DNA from: Entophlyctis helioformis
Lineage: Eukaryota; Chytridiomycota; Chytridiomycetes; Chytridiales; Chytriomycetaceae
NCBI GenBank assembly: GCA_025526915.1
Contig: JAHLKH010000112.1
Location: 1-64,000, forward strand
Length of the DNA stretch: 64,000 nt
Direction: 5' to 3'
The number at the start of each line of letters is the position of its first letter. The first letter of the stretch is position 1. Positions 1,001-32,695 of the stretch are shown here, in pieces. The position numbers and the translations under genes are program-made. The notes below the pieces were generated by a model. The model did not search any database. It was not told where the DNA came from and worked only from the letters and a program-made list of their open reading frames with translations.

Positions 1001-1284
1001 AAATGCCAACTTTTTTGTTTTTGGATCGCTGTCCAATGAAGAGGGGTGGGCAATAGGGCGAGGGAATGCCGGCAAACTGCCGGCAAATGGCCCGATATTC
1101 AAACAATTACCAAGAATTTGGAATTGGATTCGACCCGAGAGGCAACGGATGCAAGCAAGCACATCACACGATGCAAGGTTCGAGTCAGCAACAAGCATGC
1201 GACGACAAGCGGGCGAGGCACATCCACATGCATGAGGGTCTCACCTTGCACCATTGTTTGAACAATGATGTGAGAAGTGACCCG
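1001..1284. other. Intergenic, no gene recognised
   Basis: No convincing coding sequence. At 1106-1130 the text CAAGAATTTGGAATTGGATTC resembles a stretch at about 10889-10910, on the far side of the nuclease locus. The match is short and imperfect. Confidence 0.4.
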
Positions 1285-3395
1285 TTAGGTCGATCGGGAG
1301 GTGCCCCGATTCAAAGTGTTGGTGGTTGTGCTGGGAGTCAGAGCATGTGGAGTGGCACTTGACTTGCTGGCACGCTGTCTGCGTGTTGGACGCTGCTGGT
1401 CAACAGGCGGATCCGGTGCTAGAGGCAGCTGGACGACTGGCGGATCCGGTGCTGGACGCCGCTTGATGGCACGTCTTGGGCGCTGCTGGTCGACCATCGG
1501 ATCTGGTTCTAGACGTCGCTTGATGGCGTGTCTAGAACGCTGCTGGATGACAGGCGGATCTGGTGCTGGAGACTGCTGGACGACAGGCGGATCGACTGGC
1601 GTGTGCGTCAAGTAGAGCGGCCGTTGCCCAAAAGCAGATGCTCCAGTGCGACCATTCCGATGTTGGTGGCTCCAAGCACATCGCGGTGGTAGACGGTCTG
1701 CATGGTATGCACTCGTAGCGTCGCAGGTTGGTGCGGTTCTCGTATGGGATCCGCTGCTTGCACTGCGGGCACATCTGGCTGGTCAGGTTCTCGTTGCAGC
1801 GGTAGATCTGTGTGTGTGGTGCATGATCGTGTGTCAGTTGGTGCACAGATGGATGGATGGATCGACAGTGTGGCATCAGACGCACATAGGCATATCCAGA
1901 CGACCGCAGATGCCTGATGAGAAACTTCTCAAACACAGCATGCCTGCCACCTTGGCCTGTAAAGTCGATGCCAAATGCCCACACAACGGGAATGTCCTTC
2001 TCTGGGTTGCTGACAGGGAGGCCTTGAGATGCATCGGATGCGCGATATCTAGTCTTCGATCCTGCCAGCTTCATGATGCCCTCAAGAGCCTGTCCGCGAT
2101 CAGACATGCGCTTGCAGCGCATGGCAAACCGCTTGTCCTTGACCTTCTGTGGAATGCCATGTCATGCCATGCCGTCCAGTGTGATCAGCAGGCGATCAAG
2201 CAGTATGGCGGTCATGCAATGGACATCCAGAAACAGGGAAAACGTACCCGTGCATTCAGGAATGGCGTGCAGTACGCATGGCAGCGCAGATCCCAAAAGG
2301 CTCTCTCGCCTGCTGTGGCGTTTGGATCGGCATGCTTTGCTGTCTTGAATGCAATGGCCTCGTGGACGTCGGTCGCCTTGGCATATCGATTGTTGAGCCT
2401 GGCACAGGAGGCAGGCACTGTGAGTTGATCAGGTCAAGAGTGCGTGTGGCAGAGTCATTGCATGCATACCACCGCTGAAGGCTGTGCTCGGCTCGTGCCA
2501 TGCCAGAGGAGAGCACGTAGTTGGCCTCGAGTGTGTATGTCTCCTCCTTGACATTGACCAGCATGCTGGACGCGCCATACAGGTACCTTTCGCCCCAATC
2601 AAAGCTGACAACACGAACAGTCTCATAGCCCTTGTCGGCGAGCAGCTTGTTGGCATCAGCAACATCGGGCAGTCGCTGCGAGGCGTAAAAGTTGCACTTG
2701 ACCTGCCATGCCATGGCATGAGTGAGGAATGTGCAATGCATGTGCACCAATGCGCGAGGTTGGCATGCAAGTGACTTACAGGATTGGGTGTGTATGGCTT
2801 GGTGGCTGATGGGTCGCCTGGATTGGCGGCTGTGGATGGCATGTCAGTTGGTGTGGACAACAAGTACGCGTCTGGATTGGCACAGCAACTCACATTCGCC
2901 ATCAAGGCCATCGTCCAAGTCATCATCCAAGTCATCGTCATCCAAGTCATCGTCATCATCAGAGTCATCAGCATCCTCAACCTGACTGAACTGCTCGTCT
3001 GAAGTCGCCGCGTTGGGACCTGTAGAGCAAGGCAGTGGTCAGAATCAATGTGTACACCAAAGCATCCAAGCACGCCACATACTGCGAGGTGACTCTGGAC
3101 GGTTTGTGCGAAACTCCAGAACAGTTTGAAAGACACTCTTCCCGTCGGTCTTGATGCTGCCAAATCTGACCGACTTGGTTGGTAGCACTTGAGGAAGAGC
3201 ATCAACCTTCGCCTTGATCATGTCCGCCGACTGCTTGTCGTCCAGTTGAAGATCGTCAGCCTTGGCTTCTTGTGTCACATCAGGAGTTGCTCTGGCCTCT
3301 TCCACGGTGTCGGCTGGGTCAATCTGCAACTTGGCCTGCGCTGGCGTTTGATAGCGCCGTGTATCGGAGGCAAGACCCGGAAGCAGGAGATCCAT
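1285..3395 (-). CDS. Fanzor/TnpB-type RuvC nuclease domain with zinc ribbon, multi-exon, three apparent frameshifts
   Basis: Reading leftward, SIKTDGKSVFQTVLEF (about 3130) resembles the conserved N-terminal TDG motif of Fanzor proteins. VVSFDWGERYLYGAS (about 2600) carries the RuvC-I aspartate. PVVWAFGIDFTGQGG (about 1960) and NENLTSQMCPQC (about 1770) give the RuvC-II region and first zinc-ribbon pair. RRYECIPC gives the second Cys pair and YHRDVLGATNIG (about 1670) the RuvC-III aspartate. Introns include about 1806-1885 and 2160-2250. One-base frame breaks occur near 2408, 1695 and 1628. Past the last break the frame runs QRPLYL into a basic Pro-rich tail ending at 1285. ATG at 3395 is possible, but coding sequence continues upstream. 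Known Fanzors are RNA-guided DNA endonucleases; guide use here is untested. Confidence 0.8.
1290..1600 (-). repeat. Degenerate tandem repeat coding a Pro-rich, basic C-terminal tail
   Basis: The plus strand repeats the theme GGCGGATCNGGTGCT about six times at 30-60 bp spacing. Read on the minus strand it encodes repeated PDPPV.Q units alternating with basic clusters RHAIKRR and RRAIKRR, which look like nuclear localisation signals. It lies directly after the zinc ribbon and RuvC-III motif, where guide-RNA scaffolds overlap the 3' end in known Fanzor/TnpB loci. It could therefore be protein tail, RNA, or both. Confidence 0.6.
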
Positions 3396-3433
3396 GACGC
3401 ACAGCTCGTCACTTGAACTGAACGCCTTCTCGA

Positions 3434-3640
3434 TCTTTGTAACGGATGCTCGGTCGCGGTCACGTGATCCACGTGACCACGTGACCGACAGACATTGTCG
3501 GCCGCACTGGCCGCTCTGGTTTCCCCGTTCTTGCAGTCGTCTGCCCCCTTCCTGCGTGCACACATACTGACCGAGGACCAGGTCTGTGCTGCTCCAATGA
3601 AGAGTCGTCTGCCCGCCTTCTCGCGTGCACATACTGACCG
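3434..3640 (-). repeat. 68-bp direct repeats and triple CACGTG cluster between the two nuclease parts
   Basis: Two direct copies (about 3538-3578 and 3606-3645) each begin on the minus strand with GTCAGTATGTG, a splice-donor-like sequence. CACGTG occurs at 3461, 3470 and 3478. If the nuclease parts form one gene, this is an intron ending in ACAAAG near 3435, though the simplest splice is out of frame. If the Fanzor part is separate (ATG at 3395), this is its promoter, with E-boxes 66-100 bases upstream. Confidence 0.55.
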
Positions 3641-3644
3641 AGAC

Positions 3645-6600
3645 AGCGGCAGTGTTGGGCCAGTACTAATTTGTATTGCAACGCGCTCCAAGTCTTTCCA
3701 TTTAAGCTTTTTTAGAAGCCAGCCAGGCTCTTTGAGAAGAGTGGATTGTTAGCATCAAATCATAAAAAGATGGCATAGACAGGCAGTGTGACTGACTTAT
3801 GGCAGCAAGAAGCTCCAGTCTCAATGCTTGCAAGACAGGATCTTGTGACTTGCTGATGCGATCCCTTTTCAGCCCCATAACCGCCCAGAAGAGGATGGTT
3901 TCGGTGATCAGAACAAAGGGATCACGACTTGCCGCTTGAGGACAGAGCTTGATGTCTCTCTTCCAGCGAGATTGCGCAGCTGCTTGAAGTGTCCAACAGT
4001 CGACAGCGACATGTTGCGTATGATGGCCACGAGCTTGTGCAATGCTGGCGGTATCACGACAGCGCTCTTGTTCCCTGCGGCGTCCTTGGCGGCCGGCTTC
4101 TTGCCACATGCCTTCTTGGTCGCGCCGCTCTTGTCAGTGGCCGACGATGAGCCTGACCGGCCTTTCTTGTTGCTTGGCGCAGGAAGGGTGGTGTCAAGAT
4201 CGGCCGATGATGGGTTTGGCGCTGCACTCTTGCGCCTTGCTCTCTTGGGTTTCGTCGGGCTTGACGCGGCGTCCTCAGTGCTTGACGCCACACTCGATTG
4301 TCTCCCTCTCTTGGCGGCCGATGGTCTTGGCGCGGTGGCTTTGGCAGCAGCAGCCTTGGCGGCATCGGCTTCCTTGAACAGGGATTGAACCAACTCTTTC
4401 GCCTGCTCGCGAGACATTCCGGGAGCAAGCTTGATGGCTGCACCAACCGCCAGGTCGACCTGACTTGCAATGTAGTGCCGCGCGAGAATGGTGCTCACCT
4501 CTCTGGCGAGGTTGCTGAAGATGTCATTCGTCGCGCTCCCACAGAGAGTGTCGTCCAGGAGGTATGGTAGAGCTGCCTGATATGCGACGGCCTGCTGCAT
4601 GTCCGTCTGGATCGTGTCGGCCTGCTGCGCGCCATTCTTGTCCGCGTACATCTTGTCCGCACTGGCCTGCACCATCCCGCGCGTCCATGCGCGGTGGATC
4701 ATCAACTGCATGACAGTGACGACCCACGCGTTGGTCGTCTCCATGTCATGCTGCGGCTTGGCCATCTCCTTGCCGGTGAAAATGTTTGAAAGGTGGCGAA
4801 AGATGCAGGCCACAGTTGTCTCGCCGCCCGAGGTGCTGTTGATGAGTGCCGTGAACAGCTGGTTGGATGTCGGCACTGCTGGTGCTGCTGCTGCAGGCTG
4901 ATCAGGCTGCTGAGGCTCGTCAGGTTGCTCGTGATCGTCAGGCTGCTCGTGAATGTCGGCATCCTCGGCGTCCTCGGCATCCTCGTGCTGCTCGGCGTCC
5001 TTTGACTCCTCGGCTGTCTTGGGCTTCTTGACCTTCTCAAACATAACACGCTCAAGTCTTGTACCCGTCGCCAGTTGCACCGGATGCCCATACCGAGGCT
5101 CCTTGCTCTTGTGATTGTACAAACTCGAGCCGTACATGAGGCGGGCGGTGATGTCCTTTCCGAGGGTAAATCGTCCTGACAAGAGCTCCGCCTTGGTCAC
5201 GCCGCCGAGGCCGTCGATGCTGGCATGGTCGCCGAGGTCGTCGATGCCCTTGAAGTCCAGGTCCAAGAAACAATACCGCGTCGTCTTGCCATCGATCCAC
5301 TTGTACACGTGGTACTTGGGCGGGAGCAGGGCATCCGGGACAAGATCGAGTAGCTCTTCGACGATGGCGCCAATCACGACGAACCCAGCATGCCGAAGAC
5401 CGACGATGAACGAGTACACCTTTGCGAATGTGTCCTCGATGATCAGACGCCGCGTCCATATCTTTGGTGTCTTCCTGGCTTCAATGCCATAGACCTTGGC
5501 GCTTCCTGGATTGCCCGACAACATTTTCTGCGCACCACGCCAACCTCTGAGTCAGTACATGCAAAGCCATGCATGCAGGCAGAATGGCGATCCTAAATCG
5601 TACCTCCAGCAGCACTCTCGCGCCACGATGATCAGGCTCGTCCACGGCAGGCTGATCTGGCGCATCCACAGCAGGTTGATTGGTTGCTTGCTCTGCCGTT
5701 TGTTGATCATTGTTGCCGATGGCCGCAGAGAGCGACATGAGTGGCCCTGTAACAGTGCGACCCAGCTTTCGAATCAGCAGATGTAGTGCCCATCGTGAGC
5801 GAAGCACGATTCTGCCAAACACGCATGTCAGTAAGAGTACTCAAGGCAAATGGCACAGCATACATCACTTACCCATGTCTTGTGCCAGCAGGCAAACTAC
5901 TACGGGCAAACCGGCTCGACTTTCCCTTGTTGGCCTTGATGGCCTTCAGTGTCGCGGCCTTTGCAGCTTGCAATGTGCTTCTCTTCATGAGCGCGGCCTC
6001 CTGCTTCTTTGTGAATTGAAGTCGTGGCTGTGGAGGTTGGATGCAGCATGAGCAATGCATCCGAGTGCACACAATGCGTACGCAAGCGCCAATGGTACAT
6101 CAGAACTAACCGTCGTCTTGGTGTCTAAATGTCGATTGAGAGAAAAGACCACGGGTTGTACTTCTTCCACCTGAGCGTCAACAGATGGCTGTGGTCGCTT
6201 ACGCCGCTTGTGCCGCTTTCTAGATGGAGCCGCCTGCCAATTGGAGAAATGAGTGATCGGACAAGTCAGTACATGCACACACAGACAGTCAAGATGAAGA
6301 CGCACCGAGGGTTGATTGATGATCAAAAATAGCATCTCGGTGGCCTCTTTCAGCTGCTTGACAAGCGTCACTGATTGGTCATCCATGATGCGTCCCAGGG
6401 CCTTGAGCTTTTTTCTGGCCTTTTTGCGGTTCTTGGCCGAGAATTCATGGAGATCAGCTTGGTTGATGACCTTGCCTTGCTGCTTGGGCTTTTGCTTGAC
6501 TTGCTGCATGCCTGGCTGCGGTTTTGGTTCTGGAATAGCACATTCGGCAAAAAGGCTGCTGTCAGTACATGGCGTCGAGTCATTCCAATGCAAGCCAAAC

Positions 6601-8727
6601 GTACGTGGAGTTGACAGATTCTGGAAGGATGAACCTTTAGGATCCAGAATCTTGCCCAACTGATTCGTCATCCTCCGAGCGGCGCCCTGTCCAATGCACA
6701 GTGGATTGAGTTAGACACTTCAAGGTGAGAAATGCACATGCATCCAAGTCATGCCAAACGTACATGTGTGTCCCAAACAAGCCGATCAAGTCGACCAAGC
6801 TCTGCGCGCACTACCGCTACTTGAGACTTCTCGCGGGCAATCTCTAAAAGTTGCAAACTTGCCGTCCTGCTGATCGTCGCCAGAATGTCACGGCCGCGAC
6901 TCCATCGGGGTTGCGAGCGAGGTAACCTGGCACGTGCTTGACAATGCAGTCAAATGCAATCGGACATCGCTTGACATTGAGAAAGGTAGCATCCATTTGC
7001 CTTGTCTTGACAATCTTCTTGATGTGCCAGTCGATATCCTTCTGCGTCAGGTGCACAATGTTGGGATTGGGGTTGCCTTGCTGCGACTTGGGGTGGATCA
7101 GGAGGCATCCAGCGTGTAGCTGGCAGCTGCATCGTGATCCAACAATGACATCAAAGACAGGAATGATGAATCAGTCATGCGAGATACACCAAGAGATCAC
7201 ATGCGTGCATGCATACCTTGCTTGAGGCGTGGCAGTCGCGTCAACAGCCGTGCTGTTGTCATTGCCATGTGGAAATGGATGGTCAGTATGGCGCTATGCA
7301 TGCAAACGCATCCATGCCACCATCCCATAGCCAGTCACGCAATAACTTGCCTATGCACTGGCACGTTGCCAGATGGGCTGCTGGAGCCAGTTGGAGGTTT
7401 GAACGCATTGGCCAATGCCCCCGACTCGTCGTGGTACACGAAAACGGAGAAGGCGTTAAGGAACGACTTTGCAAGGTCCTCGCCTCCGATTGTCCACATC
7501 TCCTCGGCGTAAGCATTTCGAACGTATTTCTTGAAATTCTTTGCAATCCTTGGTTTGTGCAGTAGGATGCAGAACTCCTCCGGCGAGATATTCCGCTTGC
7601 TTGCCGCCTCCTCGACGTACTTGTTGGTGGTGTTGACGGCCGTGCGATGGCCTTCCAGGCAATGTGAATGGCAACGTGAGTTAGTCGGCATTGCAGCATG
7701 GATGGCAATACAGAGCATCAAGACAGGAATCGCACGCACCACGGCCGTAACAATCATGATAGTCGGTCTTGCCAAACGAAGCCACAAACTGGCAAACATC
7801 AGGGAAGACATAGACGTCAAGGGCCGACGCAACGGACGCGATACCTGGATGGTTAAAAGACCGCAGGCTTTTGGCCTCCCCCTTCCGCTTAGACGTCATG
7901 ATGACCGGGCAGCGTCCAGCGCAGTGCGCAATGAGATCCGAGTCGTTACAAATGACGGCCATGGGAATGTCGCTGATGCGAGACAAAGACTGTTAGACGT
8001 CAATCATAGCAGACAGATGTCATGGCAATCTATACCTTGGCTCGCTTGCATGGAGGGCTGCGCGGCGGGCAATACAGACGTCGGCCTCATGATTACACCA
8101 ACAGACCTTGTGTCGAGACCCAGAGCCGAGGATCTCCGCGATCGCCTCTTTGATGAGCCTCTTGTCATCGTGTGTGATGGTGAACGAAAGTCGCAGTGCA
8201 CGCTTCTCTTTCCTGGATCGTCAACCAAATGTTAGAATCGCCACATGGAGGCACAAAGAAGTGTACGTACCGCTTCAAGTGCCAAGATCCCTTGCCTATG
8301 CACCGTCTGTAAAGGCAGCGCAGAATAGTGCCCACTGAACGCAGGACTTGCAGGGCACGGCCCTTGTGAGCGGACTTGATACCGGTATCGCCGTACTTGC
8401 CGTCGACGTGAAAGATATAGGCGTGCTCAGCACCGTACTCGGCAATGAACGATGTGATGACGGGCTTGAGGATCGGTATCCACCCAGCTGTGGATACTGG
8501 GTAATCGGGCCCTGCTGCCCCCGAGAAGTGCGGAAAGAACACGCTCATCACATCGACATGAAGAATGCCAGGGTTGCTTGGTGTGGCCGTGTTGGCGTCG
8601 CTTGGATCTCGTGACGGCCATGCGCTGTCTAGCACAAGCCTCACGAACGTGGACACAAGCATACCGATCAAGAGTACACAGCTGCCGCCATGCTTCCCCA
8701 ACCACGAAACAAGCATGGGAGCCCCAT
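3645..8727 (-). CDS. XPG/FEN1-type structure-specific nuclease with long C-terminal extension, many introns
   Basis: A likely start is ATG at 8727 (MGLPCLFRGWGSM, as XPG proteins begin MG). XPG-N motifs are GILHVDVMSVFFPHF (about 8550) and FHVDGKYGDTG. XPG-I motifs are CNHEADVCIA (about 8075) and AVICNDSDLIAHC (about 7950). The H3TH-like segment is FVASFGKTDYHDC (about 7760). Acidic residues equivalent to the FEN1 catalytic set are therefore present. Clear introns are 8213-8270, 7991-8035, 7652-7739 and 6687-6763. The rest (7650 to 3650) gives contiguous exon-like frames of no family I know, including a Lys-rich segment near 6400 and an acidic-to-basic low-complexity stretch at 4200-5000. Frame breaks sit near 6888 and 3960. 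Family members cut branched DNA. Confidence 0.75.
3908..5524 (-). other. Largest exon of the nuclease locus (about 530 codons), function unknown
   Basis: The longest uninterrupted frame of the locus. It opens after an acceptor near 5530 with MLSGNPGSAKVYGIEARK and includes KYHVYKWIDGKTTRYCFLDL. It then enters an acidic repeat (EDAEDAEDADIHEQ, QPDEPQQPDQP) and ends in an Ala/Lys/Ser-rich segment resembling a disordered nuclear linker. The frame then appears to shift by one base near 3960 into RDPFVLITETILFWAVMGLK. I recognise no domain. Confidence 0.6.
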
Positions 8728-9300
8728 GTCGTGCAATTGTGTCTGCGATCGTGCGGTCTCGCCTGCGTGCCCGTGCCTGCGTATCCGTGTGTGACCGTTT
8801 GTTTGTTTGTTTGTGCGATTGTGCGATTGTGCGTGCTCGTGCGATCGTGCCTGCGAGCGACTGTGTGTGCGGTCGTGGCCGTGCCTGTGTGCCTACGATC
8901 TTGCGCTCGTGCCTGTGTGCCTGCGATCCTGCGAGCGATCCTGCGTGTCCGTGCAGTCTTGCCTGCAATCCTGCGTCCTGCCCTGCGATCCTGCGATCCT
9001 GCGATCCTGCGATCCCTGCGATCCTGCCTGCGTGTCCGTGCGTGTCCGTGCGTGTCCGTGCGTGTCCGTGCGTGTCCGTGCGTGTCCGTGCGTGTCCGTG
9101 CGTCGAGTGATCGGGTGGTGCTTGTTCCCTACCTTTAGTAACCTGAGCAGAACAGTCAACACAAGTTTGCTTTGATTTTCCACCAAACAGCCAACCAATC
9201 AGAAGTCTATGAAAAGGTCCACAATGCCGCCTCTTCCACCAGTACAGCCATGTTTGTTGTGGATCTGGTGGCATGGATCTGTCACGAGGCGTGTGTTCTC
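8728..9300. repeat. Minisatellite block upstream of the XPG-type gene
   Basis: GTGCGATT, CCTGCGATCCTGCGAT and CGTGCGTGTC motifs repeat in tandem. The cleanest array is about eight copies of the 10-mer CGTGCGTGTC at 9027-9104, preceded by GCGATCCT repeats at 8985-9025. Long frames crossing it on both strands are low-complexity translations of the repeat and are not taken as genes. The array sits within 300 bp upstream of the likely ATG at 8727. Confidence 0.75.
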
Positions 9301-10292
9301 GTCCACGACCGTGCACGTGCCGCTGACTGGCTGGCTGGCTCGCATTGACTTTTGTTCAGGTTGACGCCTGGTTGATTCAATTCATTCTCTTGGCTGGATT
9401 GCCATGCCACTCTGAGCAGCGATGCTGTTGATGCAGATCGTCTCCACATTGAGGCTGGCACGCAGCCCGTCTTGGAGGTGGTGGCTTGATGGCCACTGGG
9501 CGGCACACCAAGGGCACTCCTTCCTGTGGCAGTCTCAGCTGGCACCTGTTTGCATCCAGCCGGCACTCTTTTGCGTGCTGCAGAGACAACCGCGCCACAG
9601 CAGACCTGGACACCTTGGTTGAATCTGCAACCAAAGGCTTGCTTGATGCTCAACGGCGGTTGGATGCTGGCATGACAGCCACAGCACTGGTTGCCCATCC
9701 AGCCTTGTTCATAGGGTCCATGCCGCAGTTGGAATCACCAAGTGCGCATGGAATTGCTAGATCTCATCCGTGTGAATACCTCCAACCTGATGCCCAGCCC
9801 TCCTTTGTGCTCTGAGCAGTGCTGAGATGCGCCATATCACTATCTGGCTCCTTGGAACAGAGATTGCCAACCAACACCATGACAATCCTCCAATCTTTGA
9901 CCGAGTAGTCATCCCAGATCTCACAAATGTGTCGCACTTTCTTGTGATGATGGTGCAAGGCGAGTTTCTCCTTGGGCACAGTGTCTTCATTGCCGACTTT
10001 GGATGCTGTTGACTTCAGTCGCCAGCAGGTCTGGGACGACTTGTTCTTTGCAGCCTGCAGTCGATCAGCCCTTTGTTGTTGACCGAGACTGTGCATGCTG
10101 CTTGTCATTGCATTCGTGGGCATGCTGACAAGCCAGGTGGGTATGGCTGTTGGCTGTGGATGACGGGGTGCGACGGCATCGTGCCTTGAATGCAAGACTT
10201 GCTGATCATCTGCGCTGCTGGCTGTTGCAAAGACACTCGTCGCTGTGACCTTGCTGTCTACACCAAGGCAGCCAGGACAGAGGTTGACATGA
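9301..10292. other. Unresolved stretch with short protein-like frames on both strands
   Basis: No family recognised. A plus-strand frame near 9600-9815 gives LDTLVESATKGLLDAQRRLD. A minus-strand frame near 9960-9830 gives KKVRHICEIWDDYSVKDWRI. Both look more protein-like than random, but neither can be joined into a model. Possibly a decayed element next to the nuclease locus. Confidence 0.35.
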
Positions 10293-10877
10293 GTGGGCAG
10301 AATTGCTGCAGGCATTCTGTGTGTATCGCCTCGACAGTTCTCAAAGTCAGACCAAGCCAAGCGCGAGGCCTTACAGCAGCTTGATGATACGCGGCAGCTC
10401 GACGATGCGCCGAGTGATCCATCCATGTCCTCGTTGGTGAGCTCGCCTGCCTCTTGTGCGATGGCTGTCAACAGTTGCGACTCTGTTGACACTGTGTGCC
10501 TTGACAATCTCGACGACGACAAGGACGTTGCAGACGAGCATGGACAGCCAGCCGTTGATGCAGCTGCCACGCCAACAGCCAGCCGCCAAAGAGCGACAAG
10601 CAAGCGGAAGAGAGCAGCAGCAGCAGATGCCAGTGCGTCTGTGTCGGCTGTGACGTCGGTCGTTCGGACATTGCAGCAGGCAGCCTCAGCAGCACGCACA
10701 AGTGCGCCGACTGGACGCAGAAGGCCAACAGCCGCAACAGGCAGTGGCAGGACAGTTCTTCGTGACACTACCAACACGCAACCAACTTCTGCCCCTGGGA
10801 CAGGCTCAGCAGTCCACAAGCCAGCGCCAAAGCGACCACGACTTGAGAAGGCATCGCCTGCAGGCTGCTCAGAGTGA
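10293..10877 (+). CDS. Hypothetical basic, low-complexity nuclear-type protein (possible 3' exon)
   Basis: About 195 codons, probably not starting at this ATG because protein-like sequence may continue upstream. The order is an acidic segment (LDNLDDDKDVADEHGQ), a basic segment (RQRATSKRKRAAAADAS), a Ser/Thr/Ala-rich part and a C-terminal nuclear-localisation-like KPAPKRPRLEK. No domain is recognised. A longer frame exists on the opposite strand, but its composition looks like an antisense shadow. It ends 156 bp before ACL4. Confidence 0.35.
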   Translation: MGRIAAGILCVSPRQFSKSDQAKREALQQLDDTRQLDDAPSDPSMSSLVSSPASCAMAVNSCDSVDTVCLDNLDDDKDVADEHGQPAVDAAATPTASRQRATSKRKRAAAADASASVSAVTSVVRTLQQAASAARTSAPTGRRRPTAATGSGRTVLRDTTNTQPTSAPGTGSAVHKPAPKRPRLEKASPAGCSE

Positions 10878-11033
10878 CTGGGGAATTCGGACAAGAATAT
10901 GAAATTGGATTCAAAAAGATTGGAAATTGGATGCCAAATTGAACAAAATTCGAGGCAAACCAGCCGGCCAATCAGGTGCCGGCGCAAGGTTTTCTATGGG
11001 AACGAAATCAATTTTGGATCGCTTGCCACCAAC

Positions 11034-12392
11034 ATGAAATTCGAGGCAGCAGCGCTGGTCGAGCGTGCAGAGCGTGCGCTCGAGTCGTGCGAGCCGCAGC
11101 TGGCAGTCAAGTTCCTAGAGCGTGCGCTGCAGCAGGTGGACGACCACAAAAAGTCGCTCGGCAAAGGCCACACGTCGGGCGCCAGCGCCAATGCAGACAA
11201 GTCCGCGGAGCCTGCAGAAGAGGCCCGCATCTGGCAGCTGCTCGGCTGGTCGCACATGGAGACGGTCAACGGCCAGTCCGCAGGCGACGCCATGTTTTCT
11301 GCGACCTCGGCTGCCGAGGTCGACCCTGCCCAAGCCATGCAGTCTGCCCGCCACGCCTTCCAAAAGTCGATCGAGCTTGCTCCGGGCGACAACCATGAAA
11401 AGTACCTGTACCTCGGGCAGCTGACACTGGCAAGGAATCGCTTGGTTACTACGAGACGGGTGTGCGGCTGCTCATGTCCGAGATCCAAGCCATTCCGATC
11501 GGTCCTCAGGCGGACTTGGTAAGGCCGGCCCTCCTCATGCACTCATGCCCCCCATGCTCGCTCTGACGGCTTGCAATCGTCGCAGGCACAAGCTTACCGC
11601 AACAAGCTCGGATCGGCACTGTGCTCCATGACCGAGATCTACATGACCGACTGCTGGTAAGATACTCCTGCTTTACTCGCACATGTCATCGTGCCCGCAG
11701 CCGGCCAGAGTTTGTGGGCTGATCTGACGGGCATTCCGCTTGACAGCGACGAGCCCGAGGCCGAGTCCAAGTGCGAAGAGTACATGCAGCACGCGCTCGA
11801 GCAGAACCCATCCAACCCCGAGGTGCACCAGACGCTCGCGTCTGTGAGGCTCTCGCAGTCCCGCCCAGAGGACGCAAGCAAGAGCCTTCAGACAAGCATG
11901 GATCTCTGGTACCGCGAGCCGGGCCAAGGCAACGCAGACGGCGACGGCGACGCGGACATGGACGGCATGGATGCCGACGCGGATGCACCGCTGGTTGTCG
12001 ATCCGAACTGGCCCGTATACCCTGTGCGGATAGCACTCTCCAAGCTGCTGATGGAGGTGGCGCTGCATGAGCGCGCGCTGGCTGTGCTGCAGACGTGCCA
12101 AGCAGAGAACGACGAGGATCCTGAGATGTGGTACCTGTTTGGATGGTGCTACCTGCAGCTTGCACAGGTTCCCGGCGACGACAATGCCGACTACATGGAC
12201 GACGCCAAGGAGTGTTTCGAGTCTGTCTTGAACGTGAGTGACATGTGCCATGGTTGGCATCATTGGGCTGGAAAATGACTGACCCTCCAACGTCGGGCTT
12301 TGAATGGACGACAGATTGAGAAGAAGGAGCCGGGCTCTGCAGACCCCGAGATTTTGCAGCACATCCAGCAGCTCCTGACACAGGCCCAGTAA
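11034..12392 (+). CDS. ACL4: Acl4-type TPR chaperone of ribosomal protein L4
   Basis: TPR-like helical repeats are seen at the N-terminus (AERALESCEPQLAVKFLERA), middle (ARHAFQKSIELAPGDNHEKY) and C-terminus (WYLFGWCYLQLAQVPGDDN). The segment EPEAESKCEEYMQHALEQN is typical of the Acl4 family. In yeast Acl4 binds nascent Rpl4 and escorts it to pre-60S particles. Exons are about 11034-11518, 11586-11656, 11711-12233 and 12315-12392. The first exon needs one extra base near 11429 to join QLT to GKESLGYYETGVRLLM; this indel in a conserved single-copy gene suggests sequencing error. ATG at 11034 is chosen because the family begins just before the first TPR. Transcribed convergently with the next gene, 118 bp apart. 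Confidence 0.8.
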
Positions 12393-12510: not shown

Positions 12511-14664
12511 CTAAACTGCAATGCTGCCCGATACTGCCCATCGTTTCTGCTTTGCAGCGAGCGCTTGATCTGCATTTGTTTTGTCGCCCAACGCCACGGC
12601 CTTGTCCTTTCCGGCCGTGTCCATCGTGTCCATCGTGTCCGTCAGGTCCATGTTGATGGTTGGGCTATTCTTGGCATCGACCTTGCGATATGTCTGCACG
12701 GCAGCAGCAGCAGCAGCAGCATCCTGGCTTGTGACATTGGCATCCACGCCGACCGTCGCACGACCAAAGAACTCGTCTTCCATGCGTGCGCGTCGCTTGT
12801 CAATCCAGTCGACAAAGTCGGTCTGCTCAAGCGTCTTGATCTTGCGCGCCATGAAATGGTTGGGCCGGAACACGTGCGCGTCCTTCATCGTCAGCCAGTC
12901 CGGGTTCGGGTTGCTGCCCGTGAACCGGAGGTACCGCTTGGCGTCGTTGGTGACGTGGTCGGCCATGCCACCGCCCGGCGCCAACGCCCATGTGGCAAAC
13001 ACCATTTCATCAGGGATGAATGTGTGCTCCATCCATGCGAGCAGGTTGAAAAAGTCGAGGCTTGAACGGAGCTTGGACACAAACGAGTGCGACAGGATCA
13101 TCCATTGGCTTTGCTGGTACGGCGGGAAGTCGTCGCGCATCTGGTACGCGCGGTTGGTGTACCAGAATCCAAAGGGCCGCTCGCTGTGCGTCGACTCGAA
13201 GGCGACGGCTGCAAGACGGTCTTCGCGGTAGATGGACGGCTCGTAGTCCATGTAGCTCATGTCGGGCTCCAGCGAGCCGTGGATGACGGGAAGAGACGCG
13301 AGTGGGTAGTCGTACGCGCTGAGGTTGATGACATAGTCCCAGCTGGCAATGTCCTGGAGCTGGAAGAATGTCTCTAGATGAGAAAACACAATCGACACGT
13401 GTCCCCAATGCACGCGGAATGGATTGCTGAGCAGAAGCACGTTGCAGTCTTTCTTGAGCTCCTTGTTGCCCAGTAGCCAGGCACGCATCTTGAGGTAGAG
13501 CTCCTGTCTTCGCTGGTCGACATGGTAGATGATGAGGGCGTCTGGATGCTTGAGACGCGAGTATTGGAACTTGATGGTGTTGATGTCGTCGTGGACAAAG
13601 ACGGCGTACACGATCTTGTAGTGTGGCTTGATTGAGCACTTTTTGGTCGCGATGCTGGAGAGTGTCGCAAGGACTTCGGCACTCTGCGCGTCTTCTTTGA
13701 CGTTGAGCATGCTGTAGTAGTTGGCAGGATCAATGTGACGGAGGAGGGGTGCGTCTGGATTGTCGACAATGGTGTTGTGTCCCTGTGCAGCCATGAGGCA
13801 GCTGAAGCGAAGAGCTGCATCTGTGTGCGGCCGAAAGTGCGGATAGCGGCCCGTGATATTGGAGAACAGATGTTGTGCGTCGCTGTCGATCCGGTCGCGC
13901 AAGCCGTCTGGGTCTTTGTTGTGTGAGTTGCAATGAGTTTGCGATGGGGGTCAGTTGGAGAGTGAGTGTGTGCAGATCCCCACGGGCCGAAGCGGACATG
14001 GGTACACGCGTTATCCACGACCAGAGTCAGTCCGATGTTTGAGATGCGTGTATCACGCAACAACAAAGGCAGCCGCGTCAACAAGCAGGGACAGGGCTGT
14101 GCTGTGCGGATTGCTGACCACATGCCGCAAGTAGGAAGCAGACACGAGGCTTGGGACTTACTTGACGTCAGCTGGAAGGCTGCCTTGTTGAGAGGCCGAC
14201 AGAACTTGAACGAGTCGATGCGCACCTCGTCGCTTGCTTGCGTGCTGTCGAGCAGCTCTTGACGCTCCTTTGTGCTGAGCCGCCACCACGACGCGAATGC
14301 AGCCGATGTATTGGTGTTTGGCGCATTCTGTATACTCGCAGCCCATTGCATGTTGCATCAAGTCGCAGACGGACAGCACGACGGACAGCATGAATGCAGC
14401 GCGTTCAAGTGCTGTGAGCGTGGCATCCGGATGTGTGCCGAGAGTGCGCAGAATGCAAGTGCAAGGGCAGGCACGCAAGCAACGTACGGTGCTGGCCAGT
14501 TGCACGTCGACGCGTAGGGGCGTGTTGCCATGGAGCGACCTGAACGTGATGCCCGTCAGGACGCCAACGCCGATGGCGAGTGAGAGGAGAATGAGCATGC
14601 GACGAGGACGGAGGTGTCTGTTGTGCTGCAGCATTGCAGCCTGAGGCTTCAATGGAGTTGACAT
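12511..14664 (-). CDS. Type II membrane glycosyltransferase, GT14 (core-2/xylosyltransferase) like
   Basis: Exons 14664-14488, 14327-14162 and 13913-12511 give 581 codons in frame. Residues 20-40 form one membrane anchor (RRMLILLSLAIGVGVLTGI) after a short basic tail, the type II Golgi topology. The catalytic region shows VHDDINTIKFQYSRL, IIYHVDQR, VHWGHVSIVFSHLETFFQL, WDYVINLSAYDYPL and a late PDEMVFATWAL, in the order found in GT14 'Branch' domain enzymes. The acceptor sugar cannot be predicted. Its start is 532 bp from the divergent ITC1 start, so the two may share a promoter region. The C-terminus holds short TMDTMDT repeats. Confidence 0.8.
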
Positions 14665-17623: not shown

Positions 17624-20295
17624 GAGAAGCGTGGCAAGAAAGGCGCTGGAAAAGCCAGCCGCGATGTCTCTCCACGCAAGCGCCAGCGTGGCAATACCCC
17701 CCGCTCGTCCGTCTCTTCTGGCGCAACGGCGATCGATGGACAGGCTGATTCGGTGGCCAGGCCGCCTTCAAGCCCGGCGTCGCGACTCAAGGCTTGGGAG
17801 GTTGCACTCGCCGGCCTTGTCAAGGACTGGCTGCCGACCCATCCCTCTGACGATGGACTCAAGTGGCGCGTGCTTTCATCCTTGCTGACTGGAGAGCAGT
17901 CCACGCCTGCGTCCCCTGCGGCTGCTGTCGAGCCTGACGAGATGGTCACCGACGGAGCCCCACTGTCCACCTCACCTCGCGGCCAAGACGGCGAAGACAG
18001 CGGCGACAGCCAGAACGGTGATGCAGGCCACGCTGAAGAAGATGTCCGTCCGAGGACCGCGCACCGCAAGCGTCGCAAGATCGAGCAGTCGGATGAAGAC
18101 GAGGACGAGGACGAGGACGAGGACGACAAGGAAGATTCTCAAGACGATGCCATCAAGGGCAAAAGAGGCAAGAAGCACGATGCCGAGTGGGAGCCGGACG
18201 AGTTAGTGTCCAGCATGGCCACAAGATCGACCCGGTCGGGCCGCAAGTTCAGCGGAAGCGGCACCAGCGATGCCTTGCCGACGCGCTCTGGTCGTCTCTC
18301 AGGCACCAAAACGCGGAGCGCCGGTCGCGACTCCACTGGCACAAGCGTCTCTGCTGCTGCGGGAACCAGACGGTCGTCGCGGCGTCGCGGCGTCCAGGAT
18401 GATGACGAAGACGAGAATGGCAGCCTGCAGGGCAATGCAGATGGCGGCAGCAGTAAGAACAGCAACGACAACAGCGATGATGGCGAAGACGATGATGCCG
18501 ATATGGGCAGCAGCCGCCGGTCGTCCAGCACGCGTGGCAAGCGAGGTGCAGGCAGGGGATCGGGCCGCGTCAGTGGCACAAGGGGCCGTCCGGCACGGCG
18601 GGGGACTGCAAAGCGAGGCAGAGGACGCGGCCGGCCCTCGAAAACTGTGGAAAGCGATGGCGATAACGATAACTTCGAGGAGGATGCCGCCGTCGAGGTC
18701 GACGACCTGGTCGCACTTCCAGCTGCCACCGTGACGGTCCCGTTTGAAGACCTGTGCACATCCGCTCGGGCAGGATTTGGCCGCTTGTCAGCGGCAGACC
18801 GTCTGTCTCTCCTTGCGTTCCTGGTCGAGGACTGTCTCTTTGACAACGAGGCCTTGCGTCAGTTCCGCGACATCGCATCGGAGGACGCACTCGAGCTGCG
18901 CAAGAAGCGGCGAGACATTGTTCGAGACCAGAAGAGTGTGGCTCTTAGCATCCGCGACTTTGACCAGCCCACTCTTGCCGTGGGCGGCTCCAGCGGCAAT
19001 GGCGATTCGGCCAGCGCTTCTGGATCTGGAGCTGCTGGAAGCGCTCAGTCCAAGGCGGACGACGTGGACGAGACAGGCACGGAGCAGAGTGACACAGACT
19101 CCGAGGTGGCTCTGCAGAACCTGTCCCGTGCACAAAAGATCCGCCTGGAGCATCAGCGTCGCGAGGCTGAAGACAAGCGGCGCCAAGAGGAGCTCCAGCG
19201 CCAGAAGGAGATCAGCAAGGAGCTCAAGCAGCGCATCGACGTGGGTGGTATCGCCATGCTGTTGCCGTGGCAGCGTATGCAAACTGTGTGTGCGTGCGTA
19301 GCTGCAAACTGACTTGCTTTGACTGTGGACTGCAGGAGCGGCGCAAGCTGGAAGAGAAGGAGATGCAGCTGTTTATGCAAGAGCGGGTGGTTGACCACCT
19401 GCTGCGGATCCAGAACGCCGTTCTCCGTCTCAGACCTCTTGGACGCGACCGCTTCTACAACCGCTACTGGTGGTTTGACGGTGGCTTTGGCGCGTATCCG
19501 TTCTCGACCGTGACAACAGGCGTGGACATGAAGGCGCTTGGATCGTCGATCACGGGAGCCAAAGCCAAGGCATCTGCAACGGCCTTGGCGGCTGAGCTTG
19601 CAGTCTCACTGATGGAGCCGCTGCCGTCGACGACGATCCCCGAGGCAAGCAGGACTGCTGAGCGACAGCCCAGCCTCATGACTCTGCAGTCGGTCGAGTC
19701 AAATCCGCTGGACTGGTCGTCTGGCATGCTGTTTGTGGAAGAGTCGGGTGTGGAGGCTCTGCCAGACGTTGCGACCAAGGCTGGCCTATCCACTGGCAGA
19801 CACGGGCTGGGCATCAAGGCCGAACCGAGCAACGGTGCTGTCAAGTTGGATTCCAACATGCCGACCCAGCCATCCGCGTCTGACTACGCGGCCCTTGTTG
19901 ACGATCCCGCTCACTACCACGACGTGCAGGTCGGGCTGTTCGAGGGCCGGTGGGGCTACTACACGCGGCCCGAAGAGATTGCACAGCTGCTCAACTGGCT
20001 GGATGGCCGAGGCATCCGCGAGCAGTCTCTGTCTGCCACCATCGAGGCTCTTCGCGAGTTTATTGAGCGCGGCATGGACCAGCGATCGGCGTATCTGGCA
20101 CACATCCAGCCGCAGGCATCGTCGACACCAGCGCCATCAAGCGCAGAGGCTGGCGTGGCAGGCATCTCGACGCTGCCAGCAGTGCTGCAGACGCAGACGC
20201 AGACACAGACGCAGACACAGATGCAGCTGCAGCTGCCAACGGGGCCGTTGCTGAGTCCGCGGCAGTACATCAACCGATGGAGTGCGGCGATCTGA
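15197..20295 (+). CDS. ITC1: Itc1/ACF1-type subunit of ISWI chromatin remodeller (WAC, DDT, WHIM)
   Basis: Exons 15197-15318, 15923-16098, 16236-16777, 16880-19240 and 19336-20295 give 1386 codons with matching phases. WAC domain at about 26-125: YYIEYTGEIFLDY, then YVERVSLYRKKIWSCESTG. DDT at about 375-435: GKLIMVWNFALVHGPLLRLY and PFTLDELVAALGH. WHIM1 at about 897-965: LSAADRLSLLAFLVEDCLF. WHIM2 near 1100: LGRDRFYNRYWWFDG. WHIM3 near 1272: RWGYYTRPEEIAQLLNWLD. In this family DDT/WHIM binds the ISWI ATPase and WAC contacts DNA; together they space nucleosomes. It has a 13-Ala tract (about 516), an acidic run (about 685), AT-hook-like RGRGRPSK and a coiled coil near 1030-1085. The last 63 codons are copied at 32696. 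Confidence 0.92.
15755..15835 (+). repeat. CTCCA/CATCC microsatellite in ITC1 intron 1
   Basis: Repeated CTCCACTCCACTCCA followed by CTCCATCCCACTCC lies within the 604-bp first intron (15319-15922). Confidence 0.8.
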
Positions 20296-20388
20296 ATGAA
20301 CGAGTCTGTCACGTGACTGGCGAGCGAGTTTATGCGCATTCGGCCGAAACCGGCTTGCACACCGACCGACACACAAACACGCCCGAGC

Positions 20389-21571
20389 ATGACGCCGCTG
20401 CCCAACTGGTACTATCGCAACGCCTACTCGCCCGACAAGGACATGCCGAGCCTGGCCGGCAAGGTCGCCATTGTCACGGGCGGCAACACGGGCCTCGGCT
20501 TCGAGACGTGCCTTGCGCTGGCCCGCAACGGCGCGCACGTCTTCATGGCCAGCCGCTCCGAAGACCGTGCCCGCGAGGCCATTGCCAAGCTCAAGGAGAC
20601 GGTGCCGTCGGCCAAGATCGAGTTTCTCAGGCTGGATCTGCAGGACATGAAGCAGACGCAGGATGCGGCCAAGTCGTTCCTTGCCAAGGGTCTGCCGCTG
20701 CACATTCTGGTCAACAACGCTGGCAAGTTGGTGCTGTTGTTGCTGCTGTTGTTGCTGCTGTTGCTGCTGCTGTTGCGGATGGCCGATCGTGCCTGTGTGG
20801 CGGCTGTTTCCGATGCCTGTGTGGCATTGGATGCATTGGATCGTGCGGATGGATGGAGGCACGGCTGACACGCTGCCATCGCGCGCTGTCATCGCACGCT
20901 GCATCGCACGCTGCGTCACCCTGGCGGGTCCGGCGGCAGGCATCATGGCATGCCCCTTTGCGCTCACCAAGGACGGCATCGAGACGCAGATCGGCACCAA
21001 CCACGTCGGCCACTTTGTCTTCACCACCACGCTCCTGCCCGCGCTGCAGAAGCAGACGCCGTCGCGTGTCGTCAACGTCAGCTCATACGGCCACACGTTC
21101 ACTCCCAAGGAAGGTATCAACTTTGACAGGATCAACGACGAGACGTTCCTGTCGGCGTGGGCCCGCTACGGCCAGTCCAAGCTGGCCAACATCCTGTTCT
21201 CGCGCGGCCTCGACAAGCGCTTTGGCGACAGCGGCATCTACGTCAACTCGCTGCACCCGGGCGTTGTGCACACGGAGCTGATGCGCGGACCCAAGGATCT
21301 CTACAGCATGTCCAGCGGCATCCTGTCCGTGTTTGGATACATCACGGACACGCTGTCGTACCTGACATCGCTGACGGCCAAGCAGGGAGCGCTCACGCAG
21401 ATCTACCTCGCGACGTCGCCAGACGTGGTCGAGAAGGGCATCCGCGGCAAGTACTTTGTGCCGTTTGCGACCGAGGCGACCACCTCTGCGCAGGCCAACG
21501 ACGATGCACTGGCAGACAAGCTGTGGGAGTGGAGCGAGAAGATGGTTGCCGAGAAGCTGGGCAAGGCGTGA
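20389..21571 (+). CDS. Short-chain dehydrogenase/reductase, retinol-dehydrogenase-like (intact copy)
   Basis: Two exons, 20389-20722 and 20940-21571, give 321 codons. Rossmann motif TGGNTGLG (TGxxxGxG) near residue 28, NNAG after beta-4, catalytic Ser in VVNVSSYGH and YGQSK as the YxxxK active site. The late ASN/HPGVV segment is typical of classical SDRs of the RDH/WWOX-like group that use NAD(P)H on hydrophobic alcohols and ketones. Substrate unknown. The intron begins GCAAGT and ends CAG, a GC-AG intron that restores NNAG-IMACP exactly. The intron contains a CTG/TTG repeat at about 20731-20775. It starts 93 bp after the ITC1 stop. Confidence 0.9.
20728..20778 (+). repeat. CTG/TTG trinucleotide repeat in SDR intron
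   Basis: About 15 triplets of CTG interspersed with TTG inside the GC-AG intron. The duplicated locus carries the same repeat at about 33317-33367. Confidence 0.9.
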
Positions 21572-22265
21572 GCACAGGGAGGAATGTGTGAGATGGTGCT
21601 GGACAGCATGGCTGTCGAATGAACAAGAGCTGCCAGAGGGTTGGTGGCGAATGCGATCACAGGGATGGACAGGAGGCAGCGTGAATGGCACTGTGCACAG
21701 ATGCATGCACAGATGCATGCACAGCGAGGCGATGGTGAGGGAGGGAGCGAGAGTAGCACCAGCGACGATCGCACTGCGCAAGCAACTGCTGGCACACAGA
21801 CAACCCCGCCGGATGCAGCCGTGCATTCAGCCGCAAGCCCGCCAGCCAGCACGCCAGCCAACCACTCGCGCACGCACGATCCCGTGCCGCTGTGTGCGTC
21901 GAGTCAGCCAGCCAAGCGAGAGCCAGCAGTGCACACTCGGCGAGTTCCCATTGGCCGCAGCTGCCCGCACAGCACCGGCAGAATCCCGTCGAACGCCGAA
22001 ACACAGCACCAAACAACACAGCCGCACACAGCACCACTCAGCACCACTCCGCACCGCACGAATTCAGCATCAACATTCATCCCAGCGGCGCCGTGTGTCA
22101 GCCTGCCCGACGGCTCCGCTGCAGCCAATCAGCGCCTGCCAGCCCGCCACTGGCCGCCCTCCCGTCACCGCACGTCACTCGCCTGACTCGCCTGACTGGA
22201 CCCGCCGCCCGCCCGTCTGCCGCAAAGTGAAAGAAAAGTGCCGCCGTGCACACCGCCGTGCTGCG

Positions 22266-22273
22266 TATAAAAG
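22266..22273 (+). promoter_or_regulatory. TATA box of the small Ser/Ala gene (copy 1)
   Basis: TATAAAAG, 137 bp upstream of ATG 22410. The same element precedes the second copy at 34853. Confidence 0.7.
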
Positions 22274-22409
22274 CGACCACGCGGTCGCCCTCCATGCGGT
22301 CGTCACCAACTCCAAGCACTCCAAGCCTCTGCCCGCCCTCACGCCTCCCGGCCCCGCACATACCACAACCCGCACTCGCAGCCACAGCACACTCGCCCCG
22401 CCAGCCAAC

Positions 22410-22676
22410 ATGATCGCCTACAACGCCAACGCCTTTGCCCTCTACTCTGGCTTCCCGCCCGTCACGGCCCGCACCGTTGCTGCCAAGCCGTCGTCGTCGT
22501 CTGCGTCGATTGCCTCGTCGGCCGCCGGCTCGACCACTGGCGCCTCGTCGTCTGCCTCGTCGTCGTCGGCCTCGTCGTCGTCGTCGATCAAGAGCAGCAG
22601 CAAGCGCCTGAGCACCCTTGAGCTCGCGCAGACCAACATTGCTCCGTCTGTCGTCATGTCCGGCCGTCTCTACTGA
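22410..22676 (+). CDS. Small Ser/Ala-rich protein of 88 residues (copy 1)
   Basis: Begins MIAYNANAFALYSGFPPV, followed by about 45 residues of almost only Ser and Ala, then KRLSTLELAQTNIAPSV and SGRLY at the end. No signal peptide or membrane segment. A good TATA box, a clear stop and an identical second copy at 34997-35263 support it as a real gene. The conserved-looking ends around a Ser tract suggest a small cytosolic or nuclear protein with a disordered centre. Function unknown. Confidence 0.65.
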   Translation: MIAYNANAFALYSGFPPVTARTVAAKPSSSSASIASSAAGSTTGASSSASSSSASSSSSIKSSSKRLSTLELAQTNIAPSVVMSGRLY

Positions 22677-22990
22677 GCGTTCTCCTGCGGTCTCTTCTCT
22701 CTCGCTTCTCTCCTGCTGAGCGTGTGATCGTCTCCAGCATCCAAGCCGCCGTCCCTCCACTCATGCCACCAGCGCATTCCCACTCCACTCCACACCAACT
22801 CCCATATCATAACTTATCCTATCATTATGTCCCGCCTCGCACTATCATTATGTCCGTCCATCCCTATCTATCCCATCCAACTCTCTCGTCTGCCATCCAT
22901 CTTTACAAGCCATCAATAACAACCAGCATTGCGACTTGTGACTCTGTTGTCTTGCTTGCAAGTTCCTTTATTGTTCTATATTACTGTGCG

Positions 22991-23606
22991 CTACTGTGCA
23001 TTCCTGGTCATGACAACAGCGCTGTCGCCCAGTGCGATGGACTCGTGTGCACCAAAGCTGTGCACAGGCGGCGGCATCGGCAGCACAAACGACGGCCAGA
23101 TGGACGACCAGTTGGTGATGGCAGGTGCAGCTGCCGCTGCCGCTGCATAGTCCATAGCAGCGTCAATGCCGTTGCCGCTGTGCGTGCCTGGCACCGATCC
23201 CACAAGGTATGTGAGCACGGGAGGCGGACCCGACTCGGTGCCGTCGACTGGCACGCGCGTCTGCACCTGAGCCTGCATTGCTGGCGGTGCCAGGCCGCCA
23301 TTGTGGTCGTTGCCCGACGGCGCGAACTGGAACGCGCGCCAGAATGCAGACCCAAGGGGAGCAGGCACGTGTACATCGCCGCCGCGACCACCACCGTTGC
23401 GAGAGTCGTATCCTGGGCGTGCGGCTGCTGATCCCTGCGATGCGTGCCGTCTGCGCGGCTGGACTGTCGAGCCAGGGTACATCCGCTCGACAACCTGGCG
23501 CAGCGACTCGACAATGGAAAAGGTCACGACGGCGGAGCAGCTGGCCAGGATCGTGAGCGTGAGACCCGACAGCTGCGATGGCTGCCATGGATTCGTCTGC
23601 GGCTCG
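22991..23606 (-). pseudogene. 3' fragment of polytopic membrane-protein gene (copy 1)
   Basis: Matches the C-terminal part of the intact gene at 35577-37097 up to the duplication edge. Identity stops after the codons for EPQTNPWQPSQ at 23606; the upstream exon sequence with the first six membrane segments is missing. It retains the seventh segment and the Pro/Ala-rich tail. A fragment created by the duplication break. Confidence 0.85.
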
Positions 23607-23958
23607 GTAAACATTGCCAAACGGCGGCTTGATCCATGACCAGATCACCCTTGCGAGATCCAGCTGAAACATGCGCAGCTGTGGCGTTCTCGGTGGCAGC
23701 GGCAGGTAGCGCACTCGTCAACCAACGAAATGAGGCCGCCAAGGAACGTGGTGAAAAATTCGCAGAATCCGCGAGCAGCCAAATTTGCTTCCGCCACCAA
23801 ACACGCTCGTGGTCGCATCGCGACGATTGATTGGCCAACGTGCGCGACGACTCGATGGGGCTGCATCTGCTCAGATGCGAATGCGGCGCTGTGAGCCGGT
23901 GTGAATTTAAACAGGCGAGGACCCCCGTATCTGTTCCTGCCAGCCCCTTAGAACTACA
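23607..23958. promoter_or_regulatory. Spacer and promoter region of alkaline phosphatase copy 1
   Basis: Starts at the duplication edge. The last 20 bases before the ATG (CCAGCCCCTTAGAACTACA) are the same as before copy 2, but the TATATAAA box of copy 2 is absent; GAATTTAAAC near 23902 is a weak substitute. No gene seen. Confidence 0.5.
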
Positions 23959-26110: not shown

Positions 26111-26310
26111 GCGGCCCGTCTGAGTCTGGCTCCTAACTTTACATCCACCTTTGCATCATCAAATGAACAGTCTTGCTCATATGACCAGCATCCAACGCGT
26201 CCACTTGCACTCTTGTCAGTCGAAGATGGCAGTCGTGGTGTCCTCTTGGCCACGTTGCGAAGAGACCAATGGCCAGCTGACTGCGTATGGTGCATCCAAT
26301 ATCACTGTCT

Positions 26311-26699
26311 AACTGGTCTCTGCCACTACTGGTGCGTCGTACAATGAGAGCACTTGGAATAGAGCATGCTTGTCGACAAAAACAAAGTATCGGCGCCCGG
26401 TTTCCCTCGCCGGACTGCCTGCCCCACGAAAGGGCTTGCCGTTGTGCCCGTTGCATTTGCCGCCAATGCCTGTCGCACGTGCCGACGGCCTGCCGTCATT
26501 GGCGGCGCCATCTCGCGATAATCCCTGCAAGCCAACAACGATTGGTCCGAAAAACGAAATTTTCATCTCAAATTTTGCCCCTGAAACGGTCACTATTTTC
26601 AGACCTGGGTTTGGCCGACATCAGAAGGGTGCGGCCAGCAGCGTATATAAATGGCCGGGTTCCCCCGGTGCAAGTCCTCGCCAGCCCCTTAGAACTACA
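26311..26699. promoter_or_regulatory. Intergenic region and promoter of alkaline phosphatase copy 2
   Basis: The 3' flank of copy 1 (26111-26310) is repeated after copy 2. The unique part then contains a TATATAAA box at 26644-26651, 49 bp before ATG 26700, and the shared leader CCAGCCCCTTAGAACTACA. Confidence 0.7.
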
Positions 26700-32637: not shown

Positions 32638-32695
32638 CTCGCAGACATCTCGCAGACATTACGCCTCATCGCCACGACGATGACTGGCACACAAC

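Follow-up and report, generated by a model that had tools for sequence, protein, structure and literature searches.

The window analysed here comprises the first 64,000 nucleotides of contig JAHLKH010000112.1 (C112:1-64000) of the chytrid Entophlyctis helioformis, whose genome assembly holds 29.6 Mb in 482 contigs. Its minus strand carries, from 8727 down to 1285, what comparison of copies supports well as a single spliced gene of about 17 exons, running from an XPG/FEN-like N-terminus to a Fanzor1 C-terminus, and this gene lies inside a large, high-copy DNA transposon (window ~1041-11013). The original prediction for this strand had named the motifs HVDVMSV, HEADVCIA, NDSDLIAH, KTDYHDC, FDWGER, CPQC...CIPC and HRDVLGATNI; all are present in the minus-strand translation and fall in spliced frames without internal stops once the frame breaks of the window copy are bridged.

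Gene structure of the minus-strand locus

Paralogues of the 7.4-kb locus are numerous in the genome (83-97% DNA identity), so that its gene structure can be tested by comparison. Alignment of the window with ten paralogues, with splice sites placed by frame, gave 17 exons from an ATG at 8727 to a stop at 1285 (gene 1285..8727, minus strand), and a further likely intron of 78 nt near 3802-3725 within exon 11. From the summed exon lengths, the predicted product has ~1,970-2,000 amino acids, in which the XPG/FEN-like N-terminus is followed by ~1,000 residues without an assigned family and then by a Fanzor1/TnpB RuvC domain and zinc ribbon. With the window's frame breaks bridged, 6, 6 and 7 joined exon pieces form open blocks of 476, 859 and 428 residues. 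Each of the 16 introns is bounded by GT-AG or GC-AG in 11/11 copies (176/176 intron/copy pairs), and 16/16 are canonical in C53, a divergent copy with 50% identity to the window in its XPG part. In the XPG exons, which like the Fanzor rows of the codon-position test are in frame, third positions take an excess of the mismatches between paralogues (for C103, 121/243, P 8.7e-08).

Exon 1 (8271..8727) begins with the start codon at 8727, just after which the window lacks a base, and carries the XPG N-region-like motifs HVDVMSV and FHVDGKYG. The acidic motif HEADVCIA lies in exon 2 (8036..8212), and exon 3 (7740..7972) contains NDSDLIAH and KTDYHDCYGRG, which resemble the XPG I-region and H3TH; a GC-AG intron follows exon 4 (7351..7651). 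Exons 5-10 (5604..7252; 7252-7217, 7126-6764, 6686-6306, 6233-6111, 6027-5873 and 5811-5604) are without an assigned domain, and exon 11 (3083..5527) spans the middle region and its junction into the Fanzor half. For the middle region, no Pfam or NCBIfam family scored above its cut-off, and a low-confidence structural model gave seven weak, unrelated structural rows and no clear match. An acidic linker and the RuvC-I motif FDWGER are encoded by exons 12-14 (2470..3019; 3019-2894, 2829-2780 and 2702-2470), the RuvC core by exons 15-16 (1886..2398; 2398-2248 and 2146-1886), and the catalytic-type Glu in CNENLTSQMC, the C4 zinc ribbon, HRD and a Pro-rich tail up to the stop by exon 17 (1285..1807).

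In describing one continuous locus, the original prediction was right about the gene, while the gap that it suspected at 3.7-3.4 kb turned out to be an inserted repeat of ~230 bp rather than gene sequence (3438..3671, minus strand, within exon 11), present here in the window copy only among the 11 aligned. In C103, one open reading frame (ORF; 4353-5622 of the aligned piece) runs from the last part of the middle region across the junction into the first part of the Fanzor half, and so crosses the suspected break. Between C103 and C53, third positions hold an excess of mismatches on both sides of the junction, 41/82 to its left (P 1.3e-03) and 37/80 to its right (P 0.011). Among close copies, junction mismatches are too few to add much, and in the codon-position test of the 11 copies the 'middle' and 'junction' shares are blurred, the frames used for exon 6 (6a, 6b) and for the left of the junction not being the open ones. 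From the XPG end through to the Fanzor end, one set of 16 introns is shared by lineages that are 50% identical in their XPG parts.

Where the two halves pair across the genome, strand and order are constant. We condensed by hand the listed matches, out of 219 genome matches in all, to 74 XPG-like loci. In 34 of these, a listed TNB match follows downstream in the same orientation within 12 kb (at 4.5-7 kb in 30), and the same count for the listed TNB matches gave 0 on the wrong strand and 0 upstream. Of the 40/74 unpaired loci, DNA alignment shows the Fanzor half in the window, C95, C169 and C327, and for C98, C121 (19 kb), C162, C240 and C312 a 3' end of the element lies 6.1-7.6 kb further downstream in the same orientation. 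The kept introns, the C103 ORF and this one-strand, one-order pairing bear out the suggestion of a single two-nuclease gene, and the halves would probably be expressed as one transcript.

The ~230-bp repeat belongs to a family with at least 42 genome matches (40 of 144 candidates scored; relatives at L020, L021, L025 and L038, with ends TGTAG...TTACA). We considered that the insert might be an introner and dropped this idea, because the copies in C264 and C108 have TGTA...TACA ends and are flanked by 5-bp duplications (AGTGG and TGCAT, respectively), which makes miniature inverted-repeat transposable element-like the better label. The repeat has inserted into the transposon family at several different positions.

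The two nuclease-like parts of the predicted protein

By sequence, the C-terminal half is filed as a Fanzor1-type protein. The spliced window model, read through the frame break, matches PF07282 (TNB) at 40.4 bits against a cut-off of 26.3 (E 3.4e-10), a PHROG transposase family matches the same half (7.8e-08), and TnpB models match weakly (NF038281, E 6.2e-05, below its cut-off). Genome-wide, 150 TNB zinc-ribbon matches were scored of 205 candidates. PMC3627910 gives a Fanzor motif of D-X(125,275)-[TS][TS]XX-C4 zinc finger-X(5,50)-RD, and in the window model 188 residues separate the D of FDWGER from TSQMC, followed by the C4 ribbon, 5 residues and RD. FDWG, CNENLTS and HRD are invariant in three lineages, and their D/E/D fit the Fanzor catalytic site as set out in the available part of PMC11423790, with a RuvC D, an E on the loop before TNB and a third D or N. 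In 8/8 of the other TNB loci fetched first, the zinc ribbon and HRD lie within one ORF. Searches of the PDB by sequence or shallow profile gave nothing relevant for either half, the profile of the Fanzor half containing out-of-frame exon 15 stretches in its C103 and C53 rows.

The N-terminal part is probably an XPG/FEN-like 5' nuclease domain and a putative member of the XPG family. Seven acidic positions are all kept in three element lineages at 50-67% identity, with spacing close to that of cellular XPG. A single post-hoc pattern of ordered acidic residues (D, D, E-x-E/D, D-x-D, D) fits 3/3 element lineages and the 4 cellular XPG proteins tried, and was found in 0/300,000 shuffles. A low-confidence model of this part, for which the structural rows of Foldseek's own list were re-ranked by VIA-align, has 5' nucleases (FEN1/EXO1/XRN/T5/T4) in its 17 best rows.

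The surrounding transposon and its mosaic copies

The unit originally delimited, 1285..8727, spans the gene and is smaller than the real one, a ~10-kb transposon copy on the minus strand (1041..11013) whose mobility had been missed. In most aligned copies, homology breaks off abruptly at 1041 or a few bases from it, and its other limit is 11013 or 11000. The 3' terminal 33-mer has 76 genome copies at up to 3 mismatches (reversed control, 0), and TNB lies 395-772 bp upstream of 58/76 of these 3' ends, with 0 on the wrong strand. The 3' end reads ...ACCCCT in 16/17 other copies compared. Its terminal inverted repeat (1041..1054, minus strand; ATTGCCCACCCCTC) has a perfect 14-bp partner, GAGGGGTGGGCAAT, at the 5' end of the C169 copy (L046); GAGGGG stands at the border in 10/13 of the 5' ends fetched, and the window's own 5' end is without this run. 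Several copies (C149, C186, C255, C164 and C17) lie at or near contig ends, which indicates that the family breaks the assembly and that copy numbers are lower bounds.

Flanking words shared by the two ends of nine two-ended elements measure 9 letters in C264, 10 in C108, 12 and 11 in C22 and C169 (which occupy the same site), 7 in C95, and 5 in C16, C116, C18 and C103. In control pairs of ends from different elements, the shared word had at most 6 letters in 67/72, 7 in 3 and 11-12 in 2, the last two presumably being the C22/C169 pairs. When borders are read individually, C264, C108 and C22 fit 9-bp target duplications. No transposase of the kinds sought was found in the whole genome: MULE (PF10551) had 0 matches, with a control positive in 3/14 genomes and short exons that could hide the domain; IS1595-type (PF12762) had 0 matches, with a control positive in 1/14; and hAT had 0 matches with a silent control. 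Transposases split by introns could have escaped all three scans.

Between the gene's stop and the element's end lies an untranslated 3' stretch (1041..1284, minus strand), conserved in a 17-copy alignment and a candidate guide-RNA region. Its predicted fold has a z-score of -2.61, with 0/200 shuffles as stable, and 0/57 predicted pairs showed covariation. Upstream of the gene, the element contains tandem repeats (8874..9103) and, near its 5' end, a putative divergent ORF of 194 residues (10293..10877, plus strand) that is basic and disordered-looking and has 120 genome matches. We had also considered a divergent gene on the plus strand at 9.2-10.9 kb and then a minus-strand ORF at 9764-10993; codon phases and stops in other copies left these undecided, and the 194-residue ORF is the most plausible of the upstream candidates.

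The copies are mosaic, with differing XPG-bearing 5' parts on one homogenised Fanzor 3' part, as the profile of divergence along them reveals. Group A (the window, C16, C264 and C108) and group B (seven copies) differ by 25% in the XPG exons and by 19% over 7350-6310, but by 4-6%, about the within-group level, over 6230-1640, and by 7.7% in the 3' stretch. Divergence of each group from C53 is 29-38% as far down as 3083, falls to 9.6% over 3082-1640 and reaches 15-16% in the 3' stretch, and the Fanzor-half introns of the window and C53 are identical at 423/451 positions. In the eight TNB loci fetched first, the Fanzor half is common to all at 85-94% (main aligned piece), in L006 and L007 only from ~1989 down, whereas identity of XPG-bearing parts to the window falls as low as 44% among the matches listed. 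Nuclease-driven gene conversion, or ordinary recombination, would explain these mosaics.

Proposed working, alternatives and known relatives

Fanzor and TnpB proteins are found in transposons and use guide RNA to cut DNA, and XPG/FEN enzymes cut 5' flaps and branched DNA. We put at roughly 0.6 the probability that this family is a high-copy transposon with MuDR-like ends whose main gene encodes a single protein of ~2,000 residues, XPG-like and Fanzor1, the two nucleases of which cooperate in the element's spread or persistence. Guided by an RNA from the element's conserved 3' end, the Fanzor part would cut sites that lack the element; repair templated by another copy would then restore the element or spread it. 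The XPG-like part may trim or cut the flaps, displaced strands or branched repair intermediates of the same event. Both nuclease activities, the RNA guidance and this division of labour are predictions from sequence.

Several observations weigh against this interpretation and bear on the alternatives to it. The two halves could be neighbouring transposon genes, one XPG-like and one a Fanzor gene transcribed from a promoter of its own near 3.4-3.1 kb, with separate translation of the two. We consider this unlikely: the mosaic break falls at an exon/intron border inside a frame that C103 continues across, the intron between exons 11 and 12 is canonical in 11/11 copies and in C53, and the codon signature between C103 and C53 persists on both sides of the junction. 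In favour of two genes, the halves diverge unequally (group A differs from C53 by 34% over 3970-3083 and by 9.6% over 3082-1640), which points to partly separate histories, and Mucor MCi-2 elements, as described in PMC3627910, likewise combine variable 5' regions with a near-identical Fanzor 3' region. It also seems improbable that the N-terminal half is another Rossmann-like or inactive domain with its acidic residues placed by chance, even though XPG family profiles were not significant for it in Pfam, NCBIfam, PHROGs, PDB sequence or profile-profile searches, and its XPG hidden Markov model scores lie within the range of shuffles. The seven acidic positions kept in divergent lineages, their XPG-like spacing and the nucleases that fill the 17 best structural rows argue for a 5' nuclease. 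The best local hhalign alignments, made from a shallow query profile (Neff 1.57), are in the right register against 16 XPG proteins (E 0.15) and against 4 (E 0.18), neither significant, and off register against all 40 (E 0.33).

We regard it as very unlikely that the family consists of decayed transposon remnants, a dead repeat without function, although the inspected copies do have frame breaks. In the window, single coding bases are absent near 8716, 6897, 3960, 1697 and 1630 that are present in 9-10 of ten other aligned copies, so that this copy as assembled would be unable to make the full protein. The seven XPG-like positions and the Fanzor D/E/D are kept in the three lineages; in the window copy, the zinc-ribbon/RuvC frame is lost between CIPC and HRD. 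Against decay stand the third-position excess in the XPG exons between paralogues, the intact splice pairs in all 11 copies, and within-group divergence of 2-6% outside the 3' stretch, which suggests recent spread. Moreover, some of the single-base losses may be assembly errors, since the neighbouring host ORF (11034-11600, plus strand), which begins ~20 bp from the element's 5' end and in whose 5' flank the element sits, switches frame mid-gene as well, being itself either an assembly error or a broken gene.

A bolder version of the two-nuclease interpretation, which we judge quite unlikely, is that the fused protein is itself the family's mobility machine, making staggered breaks and processing ends, with XPG modules swappable to adapt one Fanzor core; the idea stems from the finding of no MULE, IS1595 or (with its control silent) hAT domain in the genome. 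If true, it would amount to a class of eukaryotic transposons whose movement or copying depends on an RNA-guided nuclease rather than on a DDE transposase. Fanzors are eukaryotic relatives of CRISPR nucleases and are programmable, and what they do for the transposons that carry them is not settled. A single protein that combines a Fanzor with a flap/branch-type nuclease would name a candidate partner activity, a guide-RNA cut followed by processing of the intermediate, and offers a fusion architecture that is new for study. With its many copies, its recent spread and its exchangeable XPG modules, the family would be a natural experiment on how RNA-guided nucleases help eukaryotic transposons persist.

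Among described systems, the fungal MuDr-like elements ROr-4, PBl-3 and MCi-4 (Bao and Jurka 2013, PMC3627910) are DNA transposons that contain the Fanzor motif, lack a MuDR transposase and have inverted ends of MuDr type with target duplications of 9 bp; the present family resembles them in the first two respects and probably, for some copies, in its ends and duplications. They differ in that the Fanzor part of the present protein is preceded by an XPG/FEN-like part and ~1,000 further residues, and the word XPG is absent from the main text of PMC3627910. The Mucor MCi-2 Fanzor family has the same layout, a near-identical Fanzor-coding 3' part behind 5' parts that vary, but differs in having no recognisable inverted ends, 11-12-bp duplications and, in one subfamily, a partial Crypton transposase, and is not described as XPG in the available part of that paper. 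SpuFz1, GtFz1 and PpFz1 share with the element protein the RuvC D, the E before TNB, the third D (or N) and the TNB domain; in the available part of PMC11423790, they are characterised proteins for which no XPG-like domain is described, whereas the activity of the element protein is a prediction.

With XPG/RAD2, FEN1, EXO1, XRN and T5/T4, the element part has in common the order and spacing of the seven acidic residues, an MG(V/L/I) start and, in the low-confidence model, the order of strands and helices; unlike them, it falls below significance for every sequence profile tried, is embedded in a transposon and is fused to RuvC. TnpB of IS200/IS605 and IS607 has the same C-terminal RuvC/zinc ribbon, but the element protein is eukaryotic, spliced and ~5x longer, with no TnpA partner seen.

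Large fungal proteins with both domains, which the original prediction had mentioned, did not appear in the protein database searches, a method that needs short exact words in common with relatives. The whole 1,876-residue spliced model had no relative at E 0.001 (best 7,999 candidates scored), and words from residues 1600-1876 gave none at E 0.01 (475 candidates). That fungal proteins are represented in the database is clear from a search with the RAD2 of this genome, which retrieves them, the best named relatives being chytrid at 47-50% identity. No report of XPG and Fanzor paired in one protein was found in the literature searched, which lay outside subscription sources. These comparisons suggest that the XPG/FEN-like and Fanzor pairing is a new variation on the Fanzor1-bearing fungal elements.

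The rest of the window holds other repeats and ordinary genes. A Ty1/copia-like fragment, recognised by eye from ORF translations, lies beside the element at 1-850. Two pairs of direct repeats, each 91-100% identical in the 166-300-nt pieces compared, occupy 20095-23207 / 32684-35793, at a spacing of 12.6 kb and with 433-residue ORFs in both (21375-22676 and 33962-35263), and 23922-26309 / 26663-29204, at a spacing of 2.7-2.9 kb. The ordinary neighbours include a Branch glycosyltransferase (12511-13950, minus strand), a FUSC-type transporter (37197-39353, minus strand) and a SET/MYND protein (44435-45955, plus strand).

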